50,260 bases of DNA from Laspinema palackyanum D2a (GTDB lineage: Bacteria > Cyanobacteriota > Cyanobacteriia > Cyanobacteriales > Laspinemataceae), in contig JAMXFF010000053.1 in NCBI GenBank assembly GCA_025370845.1, positions 1 to 50,260 of the forward strand. The letters run 5' to 3'. A program made the translations under genes and the position numbers. The notes beneath the pieces were generated by a model. The model was not told the origin of the DNA. It did not search any database and saw only the letters and a program-made list of their open reading frames with translations. The first letter of the stretch is position 1. The number at the start of each line of letters is the position of its first letter. This document shows positions 3,708 through 49,537 of the stretch, one piece after another.

Positions 3708-5738
3708 ATGGCCGTATCTGCTCCTACCAAACAATCTCTCGAAGAACTCTGCATTAACAGCATCCGCTTCCTGGCGATCGATGCTGTCGAAAAAGCCAAC
3801 TCCGGTCACCCCGGTTTACCAATGGGTGCAGCGCCAATGGCGTTCGTCCTTTGGGATAAATTCATGCGGTTCAACCCCAAAAACCCCAAGTGGTTTAACC
3901 GCGATCGCTTCGTCCTCTCTGCCGGACATGGCTGTATGCTCCAGTACGCCCTCCTCTATCTCACCGGCTACAGAGGCTTAGAGTTAGAGGACCTTAAACA
4001 ATTCCGTCAGTGGGAATCCAAAACCCCCGGTCACCCCGAAAACTTCCAAACCGAAGGCGTCGAAGTCACCACCGGACCCCTCGGCCAAGGGATTGCTAAT
4101 GCGGTTGGTTTGGCTGTGGCTGAAGCCCACCTCGCTGCCAAATTTAACAAACCCGACCTCACCATCGTTGACCATTACACCTACGTTATCCTCGGTGATG
4201 GCTGCAACATGGAAGGGATTTCCGGTGAAGCTTGCTCTTTAGCCGGTCACTGGGGACTCGGTAAACTGATCGCCTTCTACGACGACAACCACATCTCCAT
4301 TGATGGTTCCACCGACATCTCCTTTACCGAAGATGTCAGCAAGCGTTTTGAATCCTACAACTGGCACGTCCTCCACGTCGAAAATGGTAATACCGACCTG
4401 GATGCCATTGCCAAGGCGATCGAAGAAGCCAAAAAAGTCACCGATAAGCCCACCTTAATCAAAGTCACCACCACCATCGGCTTCGGTTCTCCCAACAAAG
4501 CCAACAGCCATGATGTCCACGGTGCAGCCTTGGGTGCTTCTGAAGTCCAAGCCACCCGCGACCACCTCGGCTGGAACTATGGTCCTTTTGAAGTACCGGA
4601 AGATGCCCTCGGTCACTTCCGCAAAGCCGTCGATCGCGGTGCCAAATATGAAGAAGAATGGAACAGCCTCTGGACTCGCTACAAAGCCGAGTATTCGGAA
4701 GAAGCTGCCGTCTTAGAACGGATGATGAGCGGCAAACTTCCCGATGGCTGGGATAAATCCCTCCCCACCTTCAAACCCGGTGAAAAAGCGGATGCGACCC
4801 GGAACCAATCCGGTGCCTGCTTGAATGCGATCGCTGGCGTCCTCCCCGACTTGATCGGCGGTTCTGCTGACTTAGCCCCCTCCAACAAAACCTTACTGAA
4901 ATCTTCCAAAGATTTCCAAAAAGGTGCCTACGAAAACCGCAACGTCCGCTTCGGCGTCCGCGAACATGGCATGGGCGCAATTTGCAACGGTATCGCCCTG
5001 CATGGTTCCGGTTTAATCTCCTACGGTGCCACCTTCTTGGTGTTTACCGACTATATGCGCGGTGCCATTCGTCTGTCCGCCCTCTCTCAAGCTGGGGTAA
5101 TCTGGGTGATGACCCACGACTCCATTGCCTTGGGTGAAGATGGCCCGACTCACCAACCCATCGAGCATATCCCCTCTCTGCGCGCCATTCCTGACCTGAT
5201 CGTGCTGCGTCCGGCAGATGGGAATGAAACCTCTGGTGCCTACAAAGTCGCCGTGGAAAAAGCCAAAGGCATTGGTGCGGATCATCCCTATCCCTCCCTG
5301 TTGGCCCTGTCTCGCCAAAACCTGCCGAACCTGGAAGGAACTTCCATCGAAGGGGTTGCTAAAGGCGGTTACACGATCTCCGACAGCGAAGGCACTCCGG
5401 ACATCATTTTGATTGGTACAGGCGGCGAACTCTACCTCTGCGCTGAAGCGGCCGAGAAGCTTCGTGCACAAGGGAAGAAAGTCCGCGTTGTCTCCATGCC
5501 AAGCTGCGAACTGTTCGACGAACAAGACGAAGCCTATCGCGAATCTGTACTTCCTAAAGCGGTCAAGAAACGCCTGGTGGTAGAAGCCGGTTCTAGCTAT
5601 GGCTGGCACCGTTACTTCGGCGACCAAGGTTCCTCCATCAGTGTCGATCGCTTCGGTGCTTCCTCTCCGGGTGAAGTGGCTCTGGAACGGTTTGGATATA
5701 CAGTGGATAACATTGTGTCCAAAGCCTCGGCACTCTAA
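3708..5738 (+). CDS. tkt: Transketolase
   Basis: This is a 676-residue thiamine-diphosphate enzyme that moves two-carbon units between sugar phosphates in the Calvin cycle and the pentose-phosphate pathway. Visible family marks are the N-terminal SGHPGLPMG segment, the ThDP-binding GDGCNMEG...N region, the transketolase signature around [18 protein letters not shown], and a C-terminal transketolase domain. The open frame extends upstream to 3606, but the ATG at 3708 gives the usual N-terminus ([25 protein letters not shown]), so I took that. It follows fabF by 257 bp and ends in an intrinsic terminator. It is rich in C-ending codons, consistent with high expression. Confidence 0.96.
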
Positions 5739-6231
5739 GTATAACCTGCAAGAAGCATAGGGGATTGGTTCCTGGAACCACCCCTAGTGTTATACAATAA
5801 AAAGGCTCTCTAATCTTAGGGAGCTTTTTTATTGATTATGTCTTTCCCAGCCCCGATGCAGGATCACGAATGTTCTTCAAAACCCTGCCATTTTTGGACC
5901 TTTGAAAACCGGATTGATTCAATTCGGGTTGGTGAACAATCCGGTCAGTTAAAGTCTAATACCCAATCCGGTTGGTAAAAGGCGTTTTTCGGTTTTAGCC
6001 CGCGCAGGCGGGCTTTGTCCCTGTAGCCTCCGGGCTTGACGGTGCGGGTTTTGATAGACCTTTAACAACCGAATTCCGTATAAGGTGGAAATCAGAAAGC
6101 CGGTATTTTGATTCAGATGCAACCCTCTGGACCAGTCCCCTCAGAAACAAAATGCAGTAACATCAGACAAGATGCTACCGCATTTATAACTTGATTAAAG
6201 CTTAGGCCAAAATTCCCAGATTTTTGTAGGT
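5739..6231. other. Intergenic region with a GCCCGCGCAGGCGGGC repeat
   Basis: After the terminator, this stretch has no coding sequence that I can support. At 5997-6014 there is a perfect hairpin, AGCCCGC-GCAG-GCGGGCT, followed by TTTGTCCCTGTAGCC. I know this combination as a dispersed repeat in many cyanobacterial genomes. Phrases similar to AATCCGGTTGGT occur several times around it (5930-5980). Confidence 0.55.
5805..5830 (+). terminator. Intrinsic terminator after transketolase
   Basis: A hairpin is formed by GCTCTCT (5805-5811) and AGGGAGC (5818-5824) with one G-T wobble and a six-base loop. It is followed by a run of six T. It lies 66 bp past the transketolase stop codon. Confidence 0.8.
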
Positions 6232-6567
6232 TTAGCGATAAGTTGTAGAGGAGCGACCTGCTACTTCTTCCCGATCGCGAGCGGGATCGGCATAATAAGT
6301 AGGGGCTTCGTTGCGATTACGACCGGCTAAACCAGCCAGACCCAGTAAGCCTAACAAGCCTAGTAAGCCCCAATCTCCATTATCATTCTCCTCTTCGACG
6401 CTTCGAGTCCCTTCTCGGGTCTCATAAACCTCTTGGGTGTCAGTTCCCGGATTTGTTTGAGTTCCGGGGTTCATTTGAGCGGAGGCGGGTAAAATGGAAG
6501 GGGCGATCGCTAAACCTGCACTGAGAACAGTGGCGCTTAAAATTGTGGACAATTTAGAACTCTTCAT
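6232..6567 (-). CDS. Small exported protein with WGxxG-type C-terminal anchor
   Basis: This 111-residue protein has an N-terminal signal peptide (KLSTILSATVLSAGLAIAPSILPASA, cleavage likely after SASA). A short polar Thr/Asn/Glu-rich stretch follows, then a glycine-leucine segment starting WGLLGLLGLLGLAGLAG and an arginine (GRNRNE). This resembles the WGxxGxxG-CTERM class of small bacterial exported proteins, in which the hydrophobic Gly-rich helix may be a membrane anchor or sorting signal. Unlike most of them, this protein has a further ~25 polar residues after the anchor. The ATG is preceded by GGAG about 10 bases upstream. Function is unknown; it stands alone with no processing enzyme nearby. 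Confidence 0.72.
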   Translation of the reverse strand: MKSSKLSTILSATVLSAGLAIAPSILPASAQMNPGTQTNPGTDTQEVYETREGTRSVEEENDNGDWGLLGLLGLLGLAGLAGRNRNEAPTYYADPARDREEVAGRSSTTYR

Positions 6568-7588
6568 AAAAAGGAGTCTCCTTAAACATTGCTTGCTTGC
6601 TTGTAACCAATCTATCTACAATCACAGGAAGCTGCATCAATCTTTAGATGTAAACTCCGTTGGAACCCAGTTATTCCTGAAGAAATAGACAAGGGGGAAA
6701 ACACAGTATAGAGTTTAGGAAAATGCCCTCAAACTTAAAGCGGGAGACAGAAGGAGGCTCTGGCTATAGGTCTGCCGATCGCCCAGTAAAATCGGGATTC
6801 TAGGGTTTACACAGCAGTCCGAGCAAGGGTTTCTCCTCGTTGCATTAGAAGGCTAGAAACGAGCGCGATCGCCACCAAAGAGGACCTGTTGATTTCGGTT
6901 AAATTTGCCCAGGGATTTAAACCCCTCAAGAAATTCCTTCCATTCACATCCGAGGTCATCCCCAAATTAAACCCCGCTCGGGTTGATATCACTACAAAAA
7001 CGGGAATCCGATAAAAATTAGCGGTTGAAAACTGAGAATCGCCCTAAGATGGCCTGTAGTCTCAGATAACAGCGGGGGTTGCTATGTCATCAAATATAGA
7101 TAAAAAAATCTAAAAGGGTAATAAAGTAGGCTGGGCCACCCCAACCCAGTTTTTAGGCCCCGTTGCTCATCAATGTAGAAAGAGCAGGCATTAATATAAG
7201 TGGCCGGAATTTTCCCCGACAACTTGGGGGAAACATCACAGTCATCCGATCCAGGGAAGCAGACAACGGGTGCACTCAGGCATGGGAAAATCCGCTTCTA
7301 TCCGCCCAGATAGGCCCATTAGGAACCGGATTTCCTGAAGGTCAACTCGACTTAGCCACCTCCAAACGCGATCGCCAACCGGCACTCAATGGGACCCCAT
7401 CGCCTCGGACACCGTGACCCATCCTCCGCGATCGGGTATAATAAACCATCAGTTGATCGTGCTTCATCCACACTATCCGGTTTTGATCGGGAGATATCTT
7501 CCTCTACAGATAGAGGCGATCGAGATAGTTGTGACCTTTAATTTGAGTGAAAGCACATTCACTTGTCGAACTTAGTAAGGAGTATTGG
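6568..7588. other. About 1 kb without a supported gene
   Basis: Short open frames occur at 6807-6992 (minus) and 7163-7417 (plus), but neither has a ribosome-binding site, a recognisable domain or protein-like composition. The last part must hold the promoter of sucrose synthase. No RNA gene or strong terminator was found. Confidence 0.4.
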
Positions 7589-10009
7589 ATGTCAGACTTG
7601 ATACAATCCGTCCTAAAATGTGACGAAAAAATCGATCTGCGTCACTTCGCCAGCGAATTACGCATCACTGGGCAGCAGTATTTTTTGAGAAATGATATCG
7701 TCCGAGCTTTTTCAGATTACTGCACAAACCAGGAAAAGCCCTCAGATTTTTATCAATCTTCCTATCTAGGAAAACTGATTTTATATACCCAGGAAATCAT
7801 TCTGGAAAACGAAAGCCTCTGCATGATTATCCGGCCTAAGATTGCCTCTCAGGAAATCTTTCGGATCTTAGAGGACCTCACCGTAGAACCCATGACCGTG
7901 CAGGAATTGCTCGATTTGCGCGATCGCCTCGTCAATCACCACCACCCCCACGACGGCGATGTCCTCGAACTCGACTTTGCCCCCTTTTACGACTACTCCC
8001 CCACCATTCGCGACCCCAAAAATATCGGCAAAGGAGTCCAGTTCCTCAATCGCTACCTGTCGAGCAAGTTATTTCAAGATCAACAGCAGACCCTCGAACT
8101 CCTCTATGAATTTTTGAGTTTGCATCAATATAACGGGCTGCAATTACTGATTAACCAACGGATTAAAAACCGGCGGGAATTGTCTCAGAAAGTCAAAGAA
8201 GCCCTCTCCTTTGTAGGCGATCGGCCCCCCGAGGAACCCTTTGAAAACTTCCGGTTCGACCTGCAAATCTTAGGATTTGAACCCGGATGGGGCAATACTG
8301 CCGGTCGCGTCCGCGACACCTTAGAAATCCTCGACGAACTGATCGACTCGCCCAACGATGCCGTCCTCGAATCCTTCATCTCCCGGATTCCCATGATCTT
8401 TCGCATCGTCCTTGTCTCCGTGCATGGGTGGTTTGGTCAAGAAGGCGTCCTCGGACGACCGGACACCGGGGGCCAAGTCGTTTATGTCCTAGATCAAGCC
8501 CGCAGTTTAGAAAAGCAACTGCAAGAAGAATTTAACCTCGCGGGATTAGATACATTAGGTGTTTATCCGAAAGTCATTGTACTGTCCCGGTTAATCCCCA
8601 ATGCCGATGGCACTCGCTGTAACGAACGCCTCGAAAAAATTCACGGGACCGATAATGGCTGGATTCTGCGAGTTCCCTTCCGTGAACAGAATCCTAACAT
8701 GACCCAAAACTGGATTTCTCGATTTGAAATCTGGCCTTATTTAGAAACCTACGCCATTGATGCCGAAAAAGAGCTCCTGGCCGAATTTCAAGGCAAACCT
8801 GATTTAATCGTCGGCAACTATTCTGATGGAAACTTAGTGGCATTTTTGTTGGCACGTCGCCTGAAAGTGACCCAGTGCAACATCGCTCATGCCTTAGAAA
8901 AATCGAAGTATCTCTTCAGCAACCTCTACTGGCAAGACCTCGACTCTCAATATCACTTTTCTCTCCAGTTTACCGCCGACTTGATTGCCATGAATGCTGC
9001 CAATTTTATTGTGAGCAGCACCTATCAAGAGATTGTGGGAACCCCGGATAGTGTCGGTCAGTATGAATCCTACGCCTGTTTTACCATGCCGGATCTCTAT
9101 CATGTGGTCAACGGCATTGAGTTATTTTCTCCTAAATTTAACGTGGTTCCCCCAGGGGTGAATGAAGCGGTCTATTTTCCCTACACCCGCACCGAAGAGC
9201 GCATCCCATCCAACCGGGAACGACTGGAAGAACTGCTCTTTACGCTGGATGACCCCGCTCAAGTTTTTGGAAAACTGGAAGACCCGAACAAGCAAATTCT
9301 GTTTTCCGTCGCTCGATTGGACCGGATTAAAAATCTGACGGGTTTAGCGGAATGTTTTGGCCGGAGTCCTGAATTGCAAGAGCGCTGTAATCTGATTTTG
9401 GTTGCCGGTAAATTGCGAACGGAAGAGTCTACCGACACCGAAGAAATCAGCGAAATGCAAAAATTGTATGGCATCATTGAGCAGTACAATTTGTATAACA
9501 AAATTCGCTGGTTGGGAGTTCGACTTTCTAAGAGCGATTCTGGGGAACTGTATCGGGTGATTGGTGACCATAAGGGAATCTTTGTGCAACCGGCTTTATT
9601 TGAAGCTTTTGGTCTGACGATTTTAGAGGCGATGGTTTCTGGGTTGCCGACCTTTGCCACCCAGTTCGGGGGTCCGTTAGAAATCATTCAGGATAAAGTG
9701 AATGGATTCTACATCAACCCGACGAATTTAGAAGAAACCGCAGAAAAACTGCTGGACTTTGTGACCAAACATGAGCAAAATCCCCATTATTGGGATGAAA
9801 TTTCCCAACGGGCGATCGAGCGGGTTTATACGACCTATACTTGGAAAATTCATACCACCCGCCTGTTATCCCTTTCTAAAATTTACGGGTTCTGGAATTA
9901 TACATCCAAGGAAAACCGTGAGGATATGTTGCGCTACTTAGAGGCGTTATTTTATCTGGTTTACAAGCCCCGTGCTCAGGCGTTATTGGCGGAACACCGG
10001 GACCGATAA
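7589..10009 (+). CDS. susA: Sucrose synthase
   Basis: This is an 806-residue GT-B glycosyltransferase (family GT4) that reversibly converts sucrose and a nucleoside diphosphate to fructose and NDP-glucose. An N-terminal regulatory region (about residues 1-250) precedes the catalytic part. There the family motifs PDTGGQVVYVLDQARSL, SARLDRIKN-type (FSVARLDRIKNLTG) and FEAFGLTILEAMVSGLPTF...GGPLEII can be seen. The last is the EX7E nucleotide-sugar site. The frame is open from 7547, but a TAAGGAG ribosome-binding site at 7576-7582 lies six bases before the ATG at 7589, which also gives the length known for cyanobacterial SusA. The gene stands alone. In cyanobacteria the enzyme mainly cleaves sucrose to feed ADP-glucose and polysaccharide synthesis. 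Confidence 0.95.
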   Translation: MSDLIQSVLKCDEKIDLRHFASELRITGQQYFLRNDIVRAFSDYCTNQEKPSDFYQSSYLGKLILYTQEIILENESLCMIIRPKIASQEIFRILEDLTVEPMTVQELLDLRDRLVNHHHPHDGDVLELDFAPFYDYSPTIRDPKNIGKGVQFLNRYLSSKLFQDQQQTLELLYEFLSLHQYNGLQLLINQRIKNRRELSQKVKEALSFVGDRPPEEPFENFRFDLQILGFEPGWGNTAGRVRDTLEILDELIDSPNDAVLESFISRIPMIFRIVLVSVHGWFGQEGVLGRPDTGGQVVYVLDQARSLEKQLQEEFNLAGLDTLGVYPKVIVLSRLIPNADGTRCNERLEKIHGTDNGWILRVPFREQNPNMTQNWISRFEIWPYLETYAIDAEKELLAEFQGKPDLIVGNYSDGNLVAFLLARRLKVTQCNIAHALEKSKYLFSNLYWQDLDSQYHFSLQFTADLIAMNAANFIVSSTYQEIVGTPDSVGQYESYACFTMPDLYHVVNGIELFSPKFNVVPPGVNEAVYFPYTRTEERIPSNRERLEELLFTLDDPAQVFGKLEDPNKQILFSVARLDRIKNLTGLAECFGRSPELQERCNLILVAGKLRTEESTDTEEISEMQKLYGIIEQYNLYNKIRWLGVRLSKSDSGELYRVIGDHKGIFVQPALFEAFGLTILEAMVSGLPTFATQFGGPLEIIQDKVNGFYINPTNLEETAEKLLDFVTKHEQNPHYWDEISQRAIERVYTTYTWKIHTTRLLSLSKIYGFWNYTSKENREDMLRYLEALFYLVYKPRAQALLAEHRDR

Positions 10010-20317: not shown

Positions 20318-21184
20318 TTATCCGCGTAAATGCTGACGGAGTGCTTGCCCCATGATATCAACGGGGACCGGGCGATCGAGCCAAATTTGCAAGGCGGCAG
20401 CCCCTTGTTGGACTAACATTTCTGACCCATCGATCGCCACCAAGCCCACTGCCTGCGCCTGTCGCAAAAATTCCGTCGGACTGGGGGTGTAGATCAAATC
20501 ATAGGCGATCGCCCCCTGGGGGAGGGTGGCCAAAAGCTCGGGGGCCACCGGCGAGTGCCCCACATCCGGAGACATTCCCACCGGGGTGGAGTTGACCAGT
20601 AATCCCGCTTGGGGTATTAGTTGGGGGAGTTCTGACCAGTCATGGACCGAGAGATTCACCGGCCCAGGGAAATCCTGCCAACTGGTTTGAAATGCCTGTA
20701 ATTTGTCCAAATTGCGGCCCACCACACAGATTTTGGCACAGCCTAACTGAGCTAAACCGGCCACCACGGCCCGCGCGGCACCCCCGGCCCCTAAAATCAC
20801 GGCGAGGGTTTGATTCCAGGGGCGATCGCAACCTTTTAGGGGGGCGAGAAATCCTTCCACATCGGTATTTGTGCCTGCCCAGCCCGTGGGAGTCCGCCAG
20901 ACGGTATTCACCGCGCCGACTGCCTGAGCAACGGGAGAAATCTCCGATAACAGAGGCATAATGGCTTGTTTGTGAGGGATGGTAATGCTAAATCCGCGCA
21001 CCCCGATGGCCGCGAAACCGGCAAGGGCTGTGGGTAAATCCGACGGGGCGACAGGCCAAGGCAGATAGACAAAATCTACGCCCATTTCAGCGATCGCGGC
21101 ATTGTGCATCACCGGGGAAAGGGAATGTTTCACTGGATAGCCAATGACACCGAGTAATTGAGTTGTTCCTGTAATAGTTGGCAT
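20318..21184 (-). CDS. aroE: Shikimate dehydrogenase
   Basis: This 288-residue enzyme reduces 3-dehydroshikimate to shikimate with NADPH in aromatic amino-acid synthesis. It shows the substrate-binding SLSPVMHNAA motif, the catalytic Lys in ITIPHKQ, the nucleotide-binding GAGGAARAVVAGL, NSTPVGM, and the C-terminal VDGSEMLVQQGAAALQIW. Length is typical. It is divergent from the BLUF-cyclase gene, separated by 316 bp. Confidence 0.95.
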   Translation of the reverse strand: MPTITGTTQLLGVIGYPVKHSLSPVMHNAAIAEMGVDFVYLPWPVAPSDLPTALAGFAAIGVRGFSITIPHKQAIMPLLSEISPVAQAVGAVNTVWRTPTGWAGTNTDVEGFLAPLKGCDRPWNQTLAVILGAGGAARAVVAGLAQLGCAKICVVGRNLDKLQAFQTSWQDFPGPVNLSVHDWSELPQLIPQAGLLVNSTPVGMSPDVGHSPVAPELLATLPQGAIAYDLIYTPSPTEFLRQAQAVGLVAIDGSEMLVQQGAAALQIWLDRPVPVDIMGQALRQHLRG

Positions 21185-21500
21185 GGGCTAAAAAAGCGGA
21201 TGCTGACATCTGTTCGTGAATACGGTTAGAGTAGGGTTGTAACTACTGTCCCGCCCCTTGATTTTATGTCACAATTTTGAATAAGAACCGTACAGAAAGG
21301 GCGATCGGGTCAGGATTCTCAAGGGCTGGCTATTTGTAAAACACGCAACATCAGGGGATTTTACCGAAACATTAGGGTTGTTGAGGTTAATCGGTGATTT
21401 GTACATAGACAACCCTCTGCTGTCATACCCGCTTCCAGCCCCAGGCATTGATGGTTGAGGTTGGCGGCGCTATTTTGCATTAGTGGACTAGAATTTTATC
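21185..21500. other. Divergent promoter region of aroE and the BLUF cyclase
   Basis: The 316-bp spacer between divergent genes must carry both promoters. TAGAAT at about 21490 is very close to the cyclase start and would leave almost no leader if it were a -10 element. No clear -35/-10 pair, CRP-like site (TGTGA-N6-TCACA) or riboswitch was seen. Confidence 0.35.
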
Positions 21501-22601
21501 ATGAAAAGACTCACCTATATTAGTAAATTTTCCCGCACCCTCTCCCCTGACGAAATTGAGGCGATCGGTCGCGTATCCAGTCAAAAAAATCAACAAGCCA
21601 ATGTAACCGGAGTTTTACTTTGTTTGGACGGGATATTTTTTCAAATCCTAGAAGGCGAAGCGGAGAAAATTGACCGAATTTATGACCGAATTCTGGCGGA
21701 TGAGCGTCATACGGATATTCTATGCTTAAAATCTGAAGGGGAAGTGGGAGAAAGAATGTTTCCGGATTGGTCCATGCAAACCATTAATTTGGATGAAAAT
21801 ACCGATTTGTTAATTGGACCCATTAAGGTGTTATTGCAGACTCTCACTGAATCCCATCGTGTGTTAGAGAAATATACCCAGCCCAGTATTTTTAAAATTA
21901 TTAGTCAAGGCACTAATCCCCTCACAATTCGGCCCAAAGCGGTAGAAAAAATTGTGTTTTTTAGCGATATTGTTTCTTTTTCAACCTTTGCGGAGAAACT
22001 GCCCGTAGAAGAAGTGGTTTCCGTTGTGAATAGTTATTTTTCAATTTGTACGGCAATGATTACTCAGCACCGAGGAGAGGTCACTAAATTTATTGGGGAT
22101 TGCGTGATGGCTTATTTTGATGGGGACTGCGCTGATGACGCAATCCAAGCGAGTTTAGATATCTTGACTGAACTGGAAAATTTACGAAATGTTTCTCCGG
22201 AAGGGAGTCCGTTGCGGGTGCTCTACAGTGGGATTGGTTTAGCCAAGGGGAAAGTGATTGAGGGCAATATTGGTTCGGAAGTGAAAAAGGATTATACTAT
22301 ATTAGGGGATGCAGTGAATGTAGCGGCTCGCTTGGAAGCCTTAACCCGCAAGTTATCCCAAGCTTTAGTTTTTTCCGGTGAAGTCAAAAAGAGTGCGGCG
22401 AAATCTTGGGATTTTATCTGGCTAGCCGATTCGGCATTGAAAGGGAAATCGGAATCGATTGAGATTTATTCAATTGATAATGAAATGACGCGCAAATCCA
22501 GCGGTGGATTGGAAATTGCTCGGAATATTGGGCATTATTTGGAACGAGTGGGCGATCGCGAACCCAGTCAGATTTTTGGGGTGACCAGTTTGCCCCTATA
22601 A
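21501..22601 (+). CDS. BLUF photoactivated adenylate cyclase (OaPAC-like)
   Basis: This 366-residue protein is a blue-light-activated adenylate cyclase. Residues 1-95 form a BLUF domain that binds a flavin: Tyr6, Asn30-34 region, Gln48, Trp90 and Met92 stand at the positions of the photoactive site. A connecting helix (about 105-127, ending in Tyr125) leads to a class III cyclase domain. That domain has metal-binding Asp156 and Asp200, adenine-selecting Lys196 and Thr266 (in DYTILGDAVNVAARLE), Asn273 and Arg277. The Lys/Thr pair points to ATP, not GTP, as substrate. Length, order and sequence agree closely with OaPAC of Oscillatoria acuminata as I remember it; it works as a homodimer making cAMP on illumination. 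It stands alone, so its targets are not shown here. Confidence 0.95.
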   Translation: MKRLTYISKFSRTLSPDEIEAIGRVSSQKNQQANVTGVLLCLDGIFFQILEGEAEKIDRIYDRILADERHTDILCLKSEGEVGERMFPDWSMQTINLDENTDLLIGPIKVLLQTLTESHRVLEKYTQPSIFKIISQGTNPLTIRPKAVEKIVFFSDIVSFSTFAEKLPVEEVVSVVNSYFSICTAMITQHRGEVTKFIGDCVMAYFDGDCADDAIQASLDILTELENLRNVSPEGSPLRVLYSGIGLAKGKVIEGNIGSEVKKDYTILGDAVNVAARLEALTRKLSQALVFSGEVKKSAAKSWDFIWLADSALKGKSESIEIYSIDNEMTRKSSGGLEIARNIGHYLERVGDREPSQIFGVTSLPL

Positions 22602-43420: not shown

Positions 43421-43849
43421 ATGCCAACCAAACCAGTTACCTTAAGATTCCCCGAAGAACTCTTAGAGGCAATCGATAAGATTGTGGTTTCTACCAGTTC
43501 AAACCGCACCGAAGTTGTGATTAAAGCTCTCCAACAAGTCTTTTCGGGAGAGGCAACTCAACCCACCCCCATGACAACTCCTGCAACAACTCCGGATAGC
43601 ACCCTCCTAAAACGACTCGAAGACCTAGATGTCAAAATCTCTAAAATCTCTAGCGTCATGGAGCAGTTAGATTCCAATGTTCTCTCCCATCTAACTCAAC
43701 GAGTCAGCCTCTTAGAAGAAGGATTAAGTTCCTCTGAACCTCCGACTCCCACCGAGGCTCCTAGTACCCCCAAAACGGCGACCAAAGGCCAAAAAAGAAG
43801 TAGAATATTCCGTTTAATAAAAGACTTCTTTTTTTCAAGTCACCTCTGA
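43421..43849 (+). CDS. Short ribbon-helix-helix protein (paralog lacking basic tail)
   Basis: This 142-residue protein begins with an RHH (CopG/MetJ-like) DNA-binding segment: a beta strand (KPVTLRFP), helix ELLEAIDKIVV, turn STSSNRTE, and helix VVIKALQQVF. A Thr/Pro linker and a coiled-coil helix (about residues 60-105, LLKRLEDLDVKISKISSVMEQL) follow. It matches the downstream 316-residue protein up to TKGQKR, then ends within about 17 residues (IFRLIKDFFFSSHL), so the lysine-rich tail and C-terminal domain are missing. It has the same leader as its paralog. It could dimerise with the long form. The intact RHH and coiled coil argue for a working gene rather than debris; loss of the tail may have been by deletion. 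Confidence 0.78.
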   Translation: MPTKPVTLRFPEELLEAIDKIVVSTSSNRTEVVIKALQQVFSGEATQPTPMTTPATTPDSTLLKRLEDLDVKISKISSVMEQLDSNVLSHLTQRVSLLEEGLSSSEPPTPTEAPSTPKTATKGQKRSRIFRLIKDFFFSSHL

Positions 43850-44425: not shown

Positions 44426-45376
44426 ATGCCAACCAAACCAGTTACCTTAAGACTACCTGAAGAACTCTTAGAGGCGATCGATGAGATTGTTGTCTCCACC
44501 AGTTCCAATCGCACCGAAGTCGTGGTTAAAGCTCTCCAACAAGTCTTTTCCGGAGAAGTAGCTCAACCCACCCCGACGACCACTGCTGCAACCCCTGCAA
44601 CCCCTGCAACTCCTGCAACCCCTGCAACAACTCCCGATACCACCCTCCTAAAACGACTAGAAGACCTAGAGGTCAAAATCTCTAGCGTCATGGATCGTTT
44701 AGATTCGGATGTTCTATCCCGTCTAACCAAACGAGTCAGCGTCTTAGAAGAAGGCTTAAGTTCCTCCGAAGCACCGACCCCGGTCGAGACTCCGAGTACC
44801 ACAAAACCTGCCAGCAAAGGCCAAAAAAGAACCTCCACGGTCAAGGAAACCAAAGCAAGCAAGGTCTCTAAAGAACCGGACGAACCCCCGGCCTCCAAAG
44901 AACCGGACGAACCCCCGGCCTCCAAAGAACCGGACGAACCCCCGGCCTCTAAGCAGTCTAAAACCAAAACCACCACCAAAACTCCCAATGGACGGCGGCG
45001 GCAGGCTAAAACCGAAAAAAAGCTCCCCGCCGCAAAAGAAACCTCTAAAACAAAAACAATCGCTTCTGCGCCTCCGGCAGAGGAACCCACTCCCACAAAA
45101 CGTAGAACTCGCGCTAAATCTACTCCAGAGGTCACCACCCCTGCTGCAACAAAAAACCAGCGGGGGACAATCGAATGGCTCACGGTCAAACAGGCATTTG
45201 AGAAACTAGGCGGCGATGCCAGCGATCCAGAATCGGTAGTTTCTAGCATCGATGGTGCTCGAACCGTCAAATTAAATCGGTTCGGGGTACTGAGTTCCGC
45301 AGATTATAAAACCTTTGGTTTAGAATTCCGACCCGATCGCCGCAGTCGGCGTTTACCCTGTTTGCGGAAACTCTAA
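44426..45376 (+). CDS. Ribbon-helix-helix protein with long basic tail
   Basis: This 316-residue protein has an N-terminal RHH DNA-binding domain (residues 1-43) that differs from its short paralog at only a few sites. An (ATP)n stretch (about 52-68; nine-base DNA repeats), a coiled-coil helix (about 70-108), and a long Lys/Pro/Ala/Glu-rich disordered region with three copies of SKEPDEPPA (about 147-175) follow; this region resembles histone H1-type tails. A C-terminal globular part (about 245-316) has WLTVKQAFEKLGGDASDPESVVSSI and a basic end (DRRSRRLPCLRKL); I do not recognise it. A nucleoid-associated or DNA-bridging role is a reasonable inference. The gene ends before a bidirectional terminator shared with psbA. 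Confidence 0.82.
   Translation: MPTKPVTLRLPEELLEAIDEIVVSTSSNRTEVVVKALQQVFSGEVAQPTPTTTAATPATPATPATPATTPDTTLLKRLEDLEVKISSVMDRLDSDVLSRLTKRVSVLEEGLSSSEAPTPVETPSTTKPASKGQKRTSTVKETKASKVSKEPDEPPASKEPDEPPASKEPDEPPASKQSKTKTTTKTPNGRRRQAKTEKKLPAAKETSKTKTIASAPPAEEPTPTKRRTRAKSTPEVTTPAATKNQRGTIEWLTVKQAFEKLGGDASDPESVVSSIDGARTVKLNRFGVLSSADYKTFGLEFRPDRRSRRLPCLRKL
44866..44950 (+). repeat. 27-bp in-frame tandem repeat
   Basis: TCTAAAGAACCGGACGAACC plus CCCGGCC recurs three times and encodes SKEPDEPPA in the disordered part of the long RHH protein. A nine-base GCAACCCCT repeat lies at about 44587-44632. Both can change copy number by slippage. Confidence 0.8.
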
Positions 45377-46865: not shown

Positions 46866-46940
46866 AATGGGGAGGATGGGGGAGATGGGGGAGATGGGGA
46901 GGATGGGGAGGATGGGGGAGATGGGGAGGATGGGGGAGAC
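46866..46940. repeat. GGGGAGATGGGGGAGGAT minisatellite
   Basis: Tandem units of GGGGAGGAT and GGGGGAGAT fill this stretch. An inverted counterpart (CCCCATCCTCCCCATCTCC) lies at 47150-47280, so the two could form a long hairpin around the repeats between them. Confidence 0.88.
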
Positions 46941-46945
46941 TGTTC

Positions 46946-47140
46946 GTAGTAACGACTTCAGTCGTTGCTCTCGTGTGATGGCTTACGCCATCACACGAGC
47001 AATTGGAGAGTCTACCGCCTACCTGCTTGGGGACTGTAGGCAAGGCTTCCAAGAGAGCGTTACATGGCTGAAGCCATGTAACGAGGAAACGACTGAAGTC
47101 GTTACTACGAACAAGAAGAAACGAGTTCAGTCGTTACTAC
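46946..47140. repeat. Nested palindromes with AACGACTGAAGTCGTT elements
   Basis: The palindromic core occurs at 46946-46966 (direct), 47088-47108 (inverted) and 47120-47140 (inverted, one arm mutated). Between them lie GTGTGATGGC-TTAC-GCCATCACAC (46974-46997) and GTTACATGGCT-GA-AGCCATGTAAC (47059-47082), which share a TGGC/GCCA heart. Confidence 0.8.
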
Positions 47141-47149
47141 AAGAATCTC

Positions 47150-47280
47150 CCCCATCCTCCCCATCCTCCCCATCTCCCCTCCTCCCCATCCTCCCCATCC
47201 TCCCCATCTCCCCTATCCTCCCCATCTCCCCTATCCTCCCGATCTCCCCCATCCTCCCCATCTCCCCCATCCTCCCCATT
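47150..47280. repeat. CCCCATCCTCCCCATCTCC minisatellite (inverted partner)
   Basis: A run of CTCCCCATC and CTCCCC(T)ATC units, reverse complement of the block at 46866-46940. Its length differs from its partner, as expected of slippage-prone DNA. It causes a long open frame of repeated IL-P-I residues that I do not accept as a gene. Confidence 0.88.
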
Positions 47281-49285: not shown

Positions 49286-49387
49286 ATGGCCGGTAGATCA
49301 TGATCCCCAAGGCGATCGGCTATTGTTGTGCAGATCACCCGGGGGGCGATCGTTAGCCCTGTCCAGGATTTATGCCTTATCTTTATA

Positions 49388-49537
49388 AGCGACTGAAGTC
49401 GTGACGTTGAACTGGGAAATAACGACTGAAGTCGTGACGTTGAACTTATGAAGATAACGACTGAAGTCGTTACTACGAACGAAGAGGGGGATAACGACTG
49501 AAGTCGTTACTACGAACGAAGAGGGATAACGACTGAA
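49388..49537. repeat. Array of AACGACTGAAGTCGTT elements
   Basis: Four copies and one cut copy run at a 33-36-bp period: about 49388, 49421, 49456-49476, 49492-49512 and 49528. The first two end GTGACGTTGAAC and the next two TTACTACGAAC. The last is broken within the core and runs straight into the stop region of the molybdoenzyme gene. Confidence 0.85.

Follow-up and report, generated by a model that had tools for sequence, protein, structure and literature searches.

We identified in the genome of Laspinema palackyanum D2a (7.41 Mb, 116 contigs) a gene, pac, that very probably encodes the Laspinema orthologue of OaPAC, the BLUF-class III adenylate cyclase of Oscillatoria acuminata PCC 6304, with a predicted inhibitory tail at its C terminus. 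The gene lies in a stretch of 50,260 nucleotides (contig JAMXFF010000053.1, positions 1 to 50,260), the whole of which is referred to here as the window, and forms an open reading frame of 366 codons with an ATG start and a TAA stop (Table 1). The best matches of its product among PDB sequences were the OaPAC entries (phmmer; 5x4u, residues 1–366, 728.9 bits, E = 6.8e-219), with bPAC as the next match at 427.6 bits. The ungapped alignment with the 5x4u chain spans the full length of both proteins, with 334 of 366 residues identical (91.3%) and 32 substitutions. The original prediction had called the protein near-identical to OaPAC and would have abandoned the idea at an identity below 70%; the value obtained is that of a close orthologue, for which "near-identical" is slightly strong wording. 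The gene itself is ordinary, being the orthologue of a well-described tool protein in a sister species.

Table 1. Features of the pac locus in the window (positions are those of the window)
Feature	Residues	Position	Strand	Basis
pac, BLUF-class III adenylate cyclase, OaPAC orthologue (very probable)	366 aa	21501..22601	+	Open reading frame, PDB and Pfam matches
BLUF domain; Tyr6, Asn30, Gln48, Asp67, Trp90 and Met92 kept	1–93	21501..21779	+	PF04940, 95.7 bits (cut-off 25)
Connector with alpha3 helix; Leu111, Leu115 and Tyr125 kept	94–137	21780..21911	+	Helix 105–123 in the model
Class III cyclase catalytic domain	152–325	21954..22475	+	PF00211 (Guanylate_cyc), 60.7 bits (cut-off 21.9)
C-terminal helix segment	326–350	22476..22550	+	Within 322–350, the longest invariant run of 8 Laspinema copies
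C-terminal tail	351–366	22551..22598	+	Last nine residues are the counterpart of the OaPAC-inhibiting part (PMC6937261)
aroE-pac intergenic region, 316 bp, between divergent genes		21185..21500	.	Spacer comparison
aroE, shikimate dehydrogenase, divergent neighbour		20318..21184	-	Pfam PF08501, PF18317 and PF01488; synteny

All nine residues that the original prediction had placed at matching positions (Tyr6, Gln48, Trp90, Met92, Tyr125, Asp156, Asp200, Lys196, and Thr266) were found there in the alignment with OaPAC. Tyr6, Gln48, Asn30, Trp90, and Met92 were invariant across the 27 rows of our alignment A1, as were Asp156, Lys196, Asp200, and Thr266; Lys196 and Thr266 we take to be the substrate pair. 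The catalytic domain also carries Asn256, Asp270, Asn273, Arg277, and Glu279. In OaPAC crystals, the flavin pocket comprises Tyr6, Gln48, Asn30, Arg63, Lys29, and Met92, and a calcium ion is bound by Asp156, Asp200, Asp270, Asn273, and Glu279 (PMC11533990). With the W90A mutation, activity drops and the large conformational change triggered by light is suppressed; L111A/L115A abolishes light activation, and a Tyr125–Asn256 bond spans the dimer (PMC10634658). D67N makes the protein more active and lengthens its recovery from 3.6 to 15.3 s (PMC10448171). At every one of these positions, the OaPAC residue is conserved in the window protein, and among the residues named in the accessible parts of this literature there was no substitution at those reported as mutated (Y6, D67, W90, and L111/L115), in the flavin pocket (N30, R63, K29, Q48, and M92), or at the Tyr125–Asn256 bond. 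Asp321, a second, surface ligand of calcium in the OaPAC crystals, is Glu in the window protein (D321E), and that surface calcium is called not physiologically relevant (PMC11533990).

Six of the 32 substitutions fall in residues 1–93, 3 in 101–137, 21 in 138–350, and 2 in 351–366, and the two stretches singled out in the original prediction, 80–106 and 186–230, hold 4 and 7 of them, respectively. Such changes could belong to a functionally diverged PAC of the same fold, with dark activity, lifetime, or light sensitivity clearly unlike those of OaPAC, which would make it a useful natural variant. The candidates include two changes where alpha3 begins (F103L and R106G), I186M, the R189Q, Q190H, and G191R changes about ten residues before Asp200, and Q354E and K362T, which fall in the C-terminal part whose deletion alters OaPAC activity (PMC6937261). 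Gly106, Arg191, and Thr362 recur in 4, 3, and 4 of the 8 Laspinema copies, respectively, so the genus does hold natural alternatives. Since each of the 32 differing residues is present in at least 1 other Laspinema copy, the window protein adds combinations rather than unheard-of residues. However, the unchanged mutated, flavin-pocket, and intersubunit-bond residues, the identity of residues 92–100 to OaPAC, and a dN/dS ratio against OaPAC of about 0.12 (dN 0.047, dS 0.395) make clear functional divergence unlikely, though by no means negligible.

Copy number, genomic place, and phylogeny all bear on the orthology. One intact, stop-free copy was found in each of the 8 Laspinema genomes searched (E up to 1e-60), with the 7 others 90–97% identical to the window copy and that of 1 genome (G001) identical to OaPAC over the whole protein. 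The named close loci belong to Laspinema sp. D2d, Laspinema olomoucense D3b, Phormidium pseudopriestleyi FRX01, and 2 Oscillatoria records; "Oscillatoria" acuminata PCC 6304 and P. pseudopriestleyi are sisters of the Laspinema isolates (PMC9500459). Within the D2a genome, the query matched 30 places, counting its own locus; identity at the remaining 29 was no more than 37%, and the genome holds a single BLUF match in total. A divergent aroE gene adjoins pac in the window and in all 12 other Laspinema loci examined (L009–L013 and L035–L041, with 7 further distinct proteins), separated by 315–317 bp in 8 of 8 spacers measured. In a tree of 39 rows (37 of them different), the 8 Laspinema copies form 1 clade, OaPAC included, with support of 100/100. 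One copy per genome, the single BLUF match, the aroE synteny, and this clade together identify a vertically inherited orthologue, not a second PAC, and none of the tests run (copy number, synteny, and tree) gave evidence against orthology. Horizontal acquisition or duplication of a second PAC is therefore rejected as very improbable, although patchiness across the order (matches in 20 of 388 genomes) can accompany transfer or loss. The "second natural version" of the original prediction is thus a natural version of OaPAC, but not an isolated second one, as it is 1 of 8 in the genus, all in the same genomic place. Before distinct proteins were counted, identical ones were collapsed, and incomplete rows (L031, 297 aa; the second L028 frame, 273 aa) and a partial match at a contig end (G374, residues 133–335) were left out. 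No open-licence PMC paper was found in which "Laspinema" and "cyclase" occur together.

The pooled dN/dS of the 8 Laspinema copies was 0.112, a figure obtained from pairwise values that are not independent, and pac is under purifying selection in the genus. Least probable of all is a relic that has lost its light response or cyclase activity and persists as a binding protein, as the named catalytic and photochemical residues are complete, the frame is intact, and selection is purifying.

A GDSL hydrolase gene lies downstream of pac in 10 of the 12 other Laspinema loci; in L010 and L039, which carry the same protein, the sequence ends less than 200 bp past pac. In L039, of the P. pseudopriestleyi type, the 169 nt after the stop codon could not be aligned with those of the other 7 Laspinema copies. 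Outside the genus, divergent aroE-pac pairs occurred at 5 distinct places among 28 loci (L014/L043, which carry 1 protein, L015, L032, L045, and L047), with spacers of 167–566 bp. L034 and L044 had only a partial aroE match 0.6–1.5 kb off, in L028 aroE was about 2.8 kb away, and no aroE was found at E up to 1e-5 in the flanking DNA examined for the remaining non-Laspinema loci. We found no evidence supporting aroE as part of a light system.

The aroE-pac spacer contains blocks identical in the 8 Laspinema genomes, among them CTGTCCCGCCCCTTGATTTTATGTCACAATTTTGAAT. The motif TGTCACA was present in 8 of 8 Laspinema spacers and in L047 and missing from L043, L015, L032, L044, L034, and L045; a related form, TATGCCACAAT, was seen in the L015 and L032 spacers, and the form TATG(T/C)CACAAT recurred in those of L047, L015, and L032. 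A cAMP-CRP site in the spacer was considered and is not claimed, because in Laspinema TGTCACA lies nearer to aroE than to pac and no proper two-half palindrome was seen by eye.

Elsewhere in the window, a 74-nt inverted repeat (46866–47280; arms 46866–46939 and 47207–47280) is 91% complementary and built of G-rich and C-rich 9-nt units, with short repeats containing AACGACTGAAGTCGTT between its arms that recur at 49385–49525, some copies being altered. The reading frames at 43421–43849 and 44426–45376, spaced about 1 kb apart, resemble each other, have duplicated upstream DNA (300 nt, 82%), and are, we presume, ribbon-helix-helix-like. A single CRISPR-DR28 match (5996–6019, 37.3 bits, gathering threshold 35) is probably isolated or due to chance, as the search of 5700–7600 revealed no array of repeats of this kind.

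By homology with OaPAC, the window protein would act as a homodimer, with Leu111 and Leu115 of the alpha3 coiled coil present. Blue light would excite the BLUF flavin and rearrange the hydrogen-bond network of Tyr6 and Gln48, Trp90 and Met92 would relay this change to the alpha3 coiled coil, and alpha3 would shift the 2 cyclase domains so that ATP is converted to cAMP; the dark state would be regained within seconds, and the C-terminal tail would keep activity low. We infer this photochemistry, dimer, catalysis, and tail inhibition from published OaPAC work, in the accessible parts of which no cellular role for OaPAC was found. The cAMP produced would most likely be sensed by cyclic-nucleotide-binding proteins, of the CRP type or others, with pili and motility as possible targets, by analogy with Synechocystis, in which blue light raises cAMP via Cya1 and Sycrp1 and Sycrp2 act on pili and motility (PMC7690835). 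Cyclic-nucleotide-binding matches numbered 12 in the D2a genome, and with 11 of them above the Pfam cut-off, cAMP receptors are available, which may be linked to the window PAC.

The C terminus sets the Laspinema proteins apart. All 8 copies, that of the window included, end in SQIFG(V/M)(T/K)SLPL, and this tail was missing from every one of the 30 different complete PACs examined from other genera (L057, L059, and L063 among them). In OaPAC, removal of 9 or more C-terminal residues raised photoactivity 30–60 fold in HEK cells at 1 light intensity, BLUF spectral changes were independent of tail length, and 15 OaPAC tail residues grafted onto bPAC had no effect (PMC6937261); the Figure 1 legend of that paper covers a C-terminal comparison of OaPAC, bPAC, Euglena PAC alpha, and mutants. 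Across the 8 Laspinema copies, nucleotide identity averaged 0.899 in the tail and 0.898 in the gene as a whole, but dropped to 0.632 over the 120 nt directly past the stop codon, so the tail reads as protein. Part of this drop is due to L039, owing to its unalignable downstream DNA; without it, the values were 0.901 for the tail and 0.745 for the 120 nt past the stop. We therefore predict from sequence that the window protein is a tail-inhibited, low-activity PAC like OaPAC, despite Q354E and K362T. The AlphaFold model (27 rows, monomer; mean pLDDT 80.5, pTM 0.62) had pLDDT below 50 in residues 116–126 and 355–366 and is thus uninformative on how the tail docks.

Residues 322–350 form the longest run without an amino-acid change in the 8 copies, followed by 233–260 and 147–172. 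Segment 326–350 had a mean identity of 26% (maximum 52%) to 21 other PACs, whereas residues 138–325 averaged 60%. At 12 of the 25 positions of the segment, the residue is Laspinema-specific (common to at most 1 of the 21). We tentatively propose, at somewhat less than even chances, that the invariant helix and the short hydrophobic tail (approximately residues 326–366) make up a genus-specific gain-control module born in this lineage, which would desensitize an intrinsically bPAC-like cyclase for bright surface mats. Two observations count against it. Silent variation is also low here, with 8 of 29 codons varying in 322–350 vs 13 of 28 in 233–260 and 16 of 26 in 147–172 and a dS of 0.196 for 326–350 vs 0.389 for the whole gene, so local recombination or constraint at the DNA level is possible. 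Further, the dN/dS of the tail (351–366), drawn from few codons, was 0.22, higher than that of the gene. If the proposal is true, high activity would be expected of the tail-less PACs of neighboring cyanobacteria, and separate tails may have evolved in further PAC lineages. The set of orthologues makes the published tail inhibition testable by comparing tail-bearing Laspinema PACs with tail-less cyanobacterial ones.

The original prediction had also described BLUF-domain PACs as rare in bacteria, which is fair in the sense that they are patchy in our samples. At E up to 1e-60, the order sample gave matches in 20 of 388 genomes, from 9 of 149 genera; Laspinema accounts for 8 of these genomes, and 1 match is partial. 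In the phylum sample, 5 of 386 genomes and 3 of 143 genera matched, the D2a genome included. A scan of a genome collection yielded 26 loci, 24 with cyanobacterial titles, 1 from a Thiomargarita MAG, and 1 from a Candidatus Omnitrophota MAG, the last 2 forming long branches of unsure placement in the tree. Some Pseudanabaena-type genomes carry 2 PAC frames side by side (L025:1309-3546, L028, and G638, which is L057/L059), the second frame of L028 being partial. The second copy of L025 and the proteins of L027, L029, and L057 share a tail of their own, KTLF(M/I/K)LYD(R/Q). Argonema-group PACs (L034, L044, and L048) have a different short tail, which ends in EPNFRF, so tails particular to one lineage may be widespread among the PACs of cyanobacteria.

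OaPAC, for which crystal structures are available (PDB 4yus, 5x4u, and 9f1w), has been studied in depth as an optogenetic tool, and the 8 natural orthologues reveal which positions of the enzyme tolerate change and which are fixed. It shares with the window protein the length of 366 residues, the domain order, the functional residues, the tail, and the aroE neighbor; only 2 of the substitutions between them are in the tail. The bPAC/BlaC protein of Beggiatoa sp. (PDB 5m27 and 5mbj) likewise joins a BLUF domain to a class III cyclase and is 57.8% identical to the window protein over 348 aligned columns (5mbj chain), but its chain stops 3 residues past the Glu348 position, beyond which OaPAC continues for 18 residues, and its activity is approximately 100 times that of OaPAC (PMC6937261). 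Other cyanobacterial PACs, including those of Planktothricoides, Argonema, and Pseudanabaena, have the same architecture at 52–66% identity (A1) without the Laspinema-type tail, and the low identity of their 326–350 segment was seen across the 21 non-Laspinema rows compared. Euglena PAC alpha and beta also combine BLUF and cyclase domains but, unlike the window protein, carry 2 of each per chain and assemble as a heterotetramer (PMC6937261).
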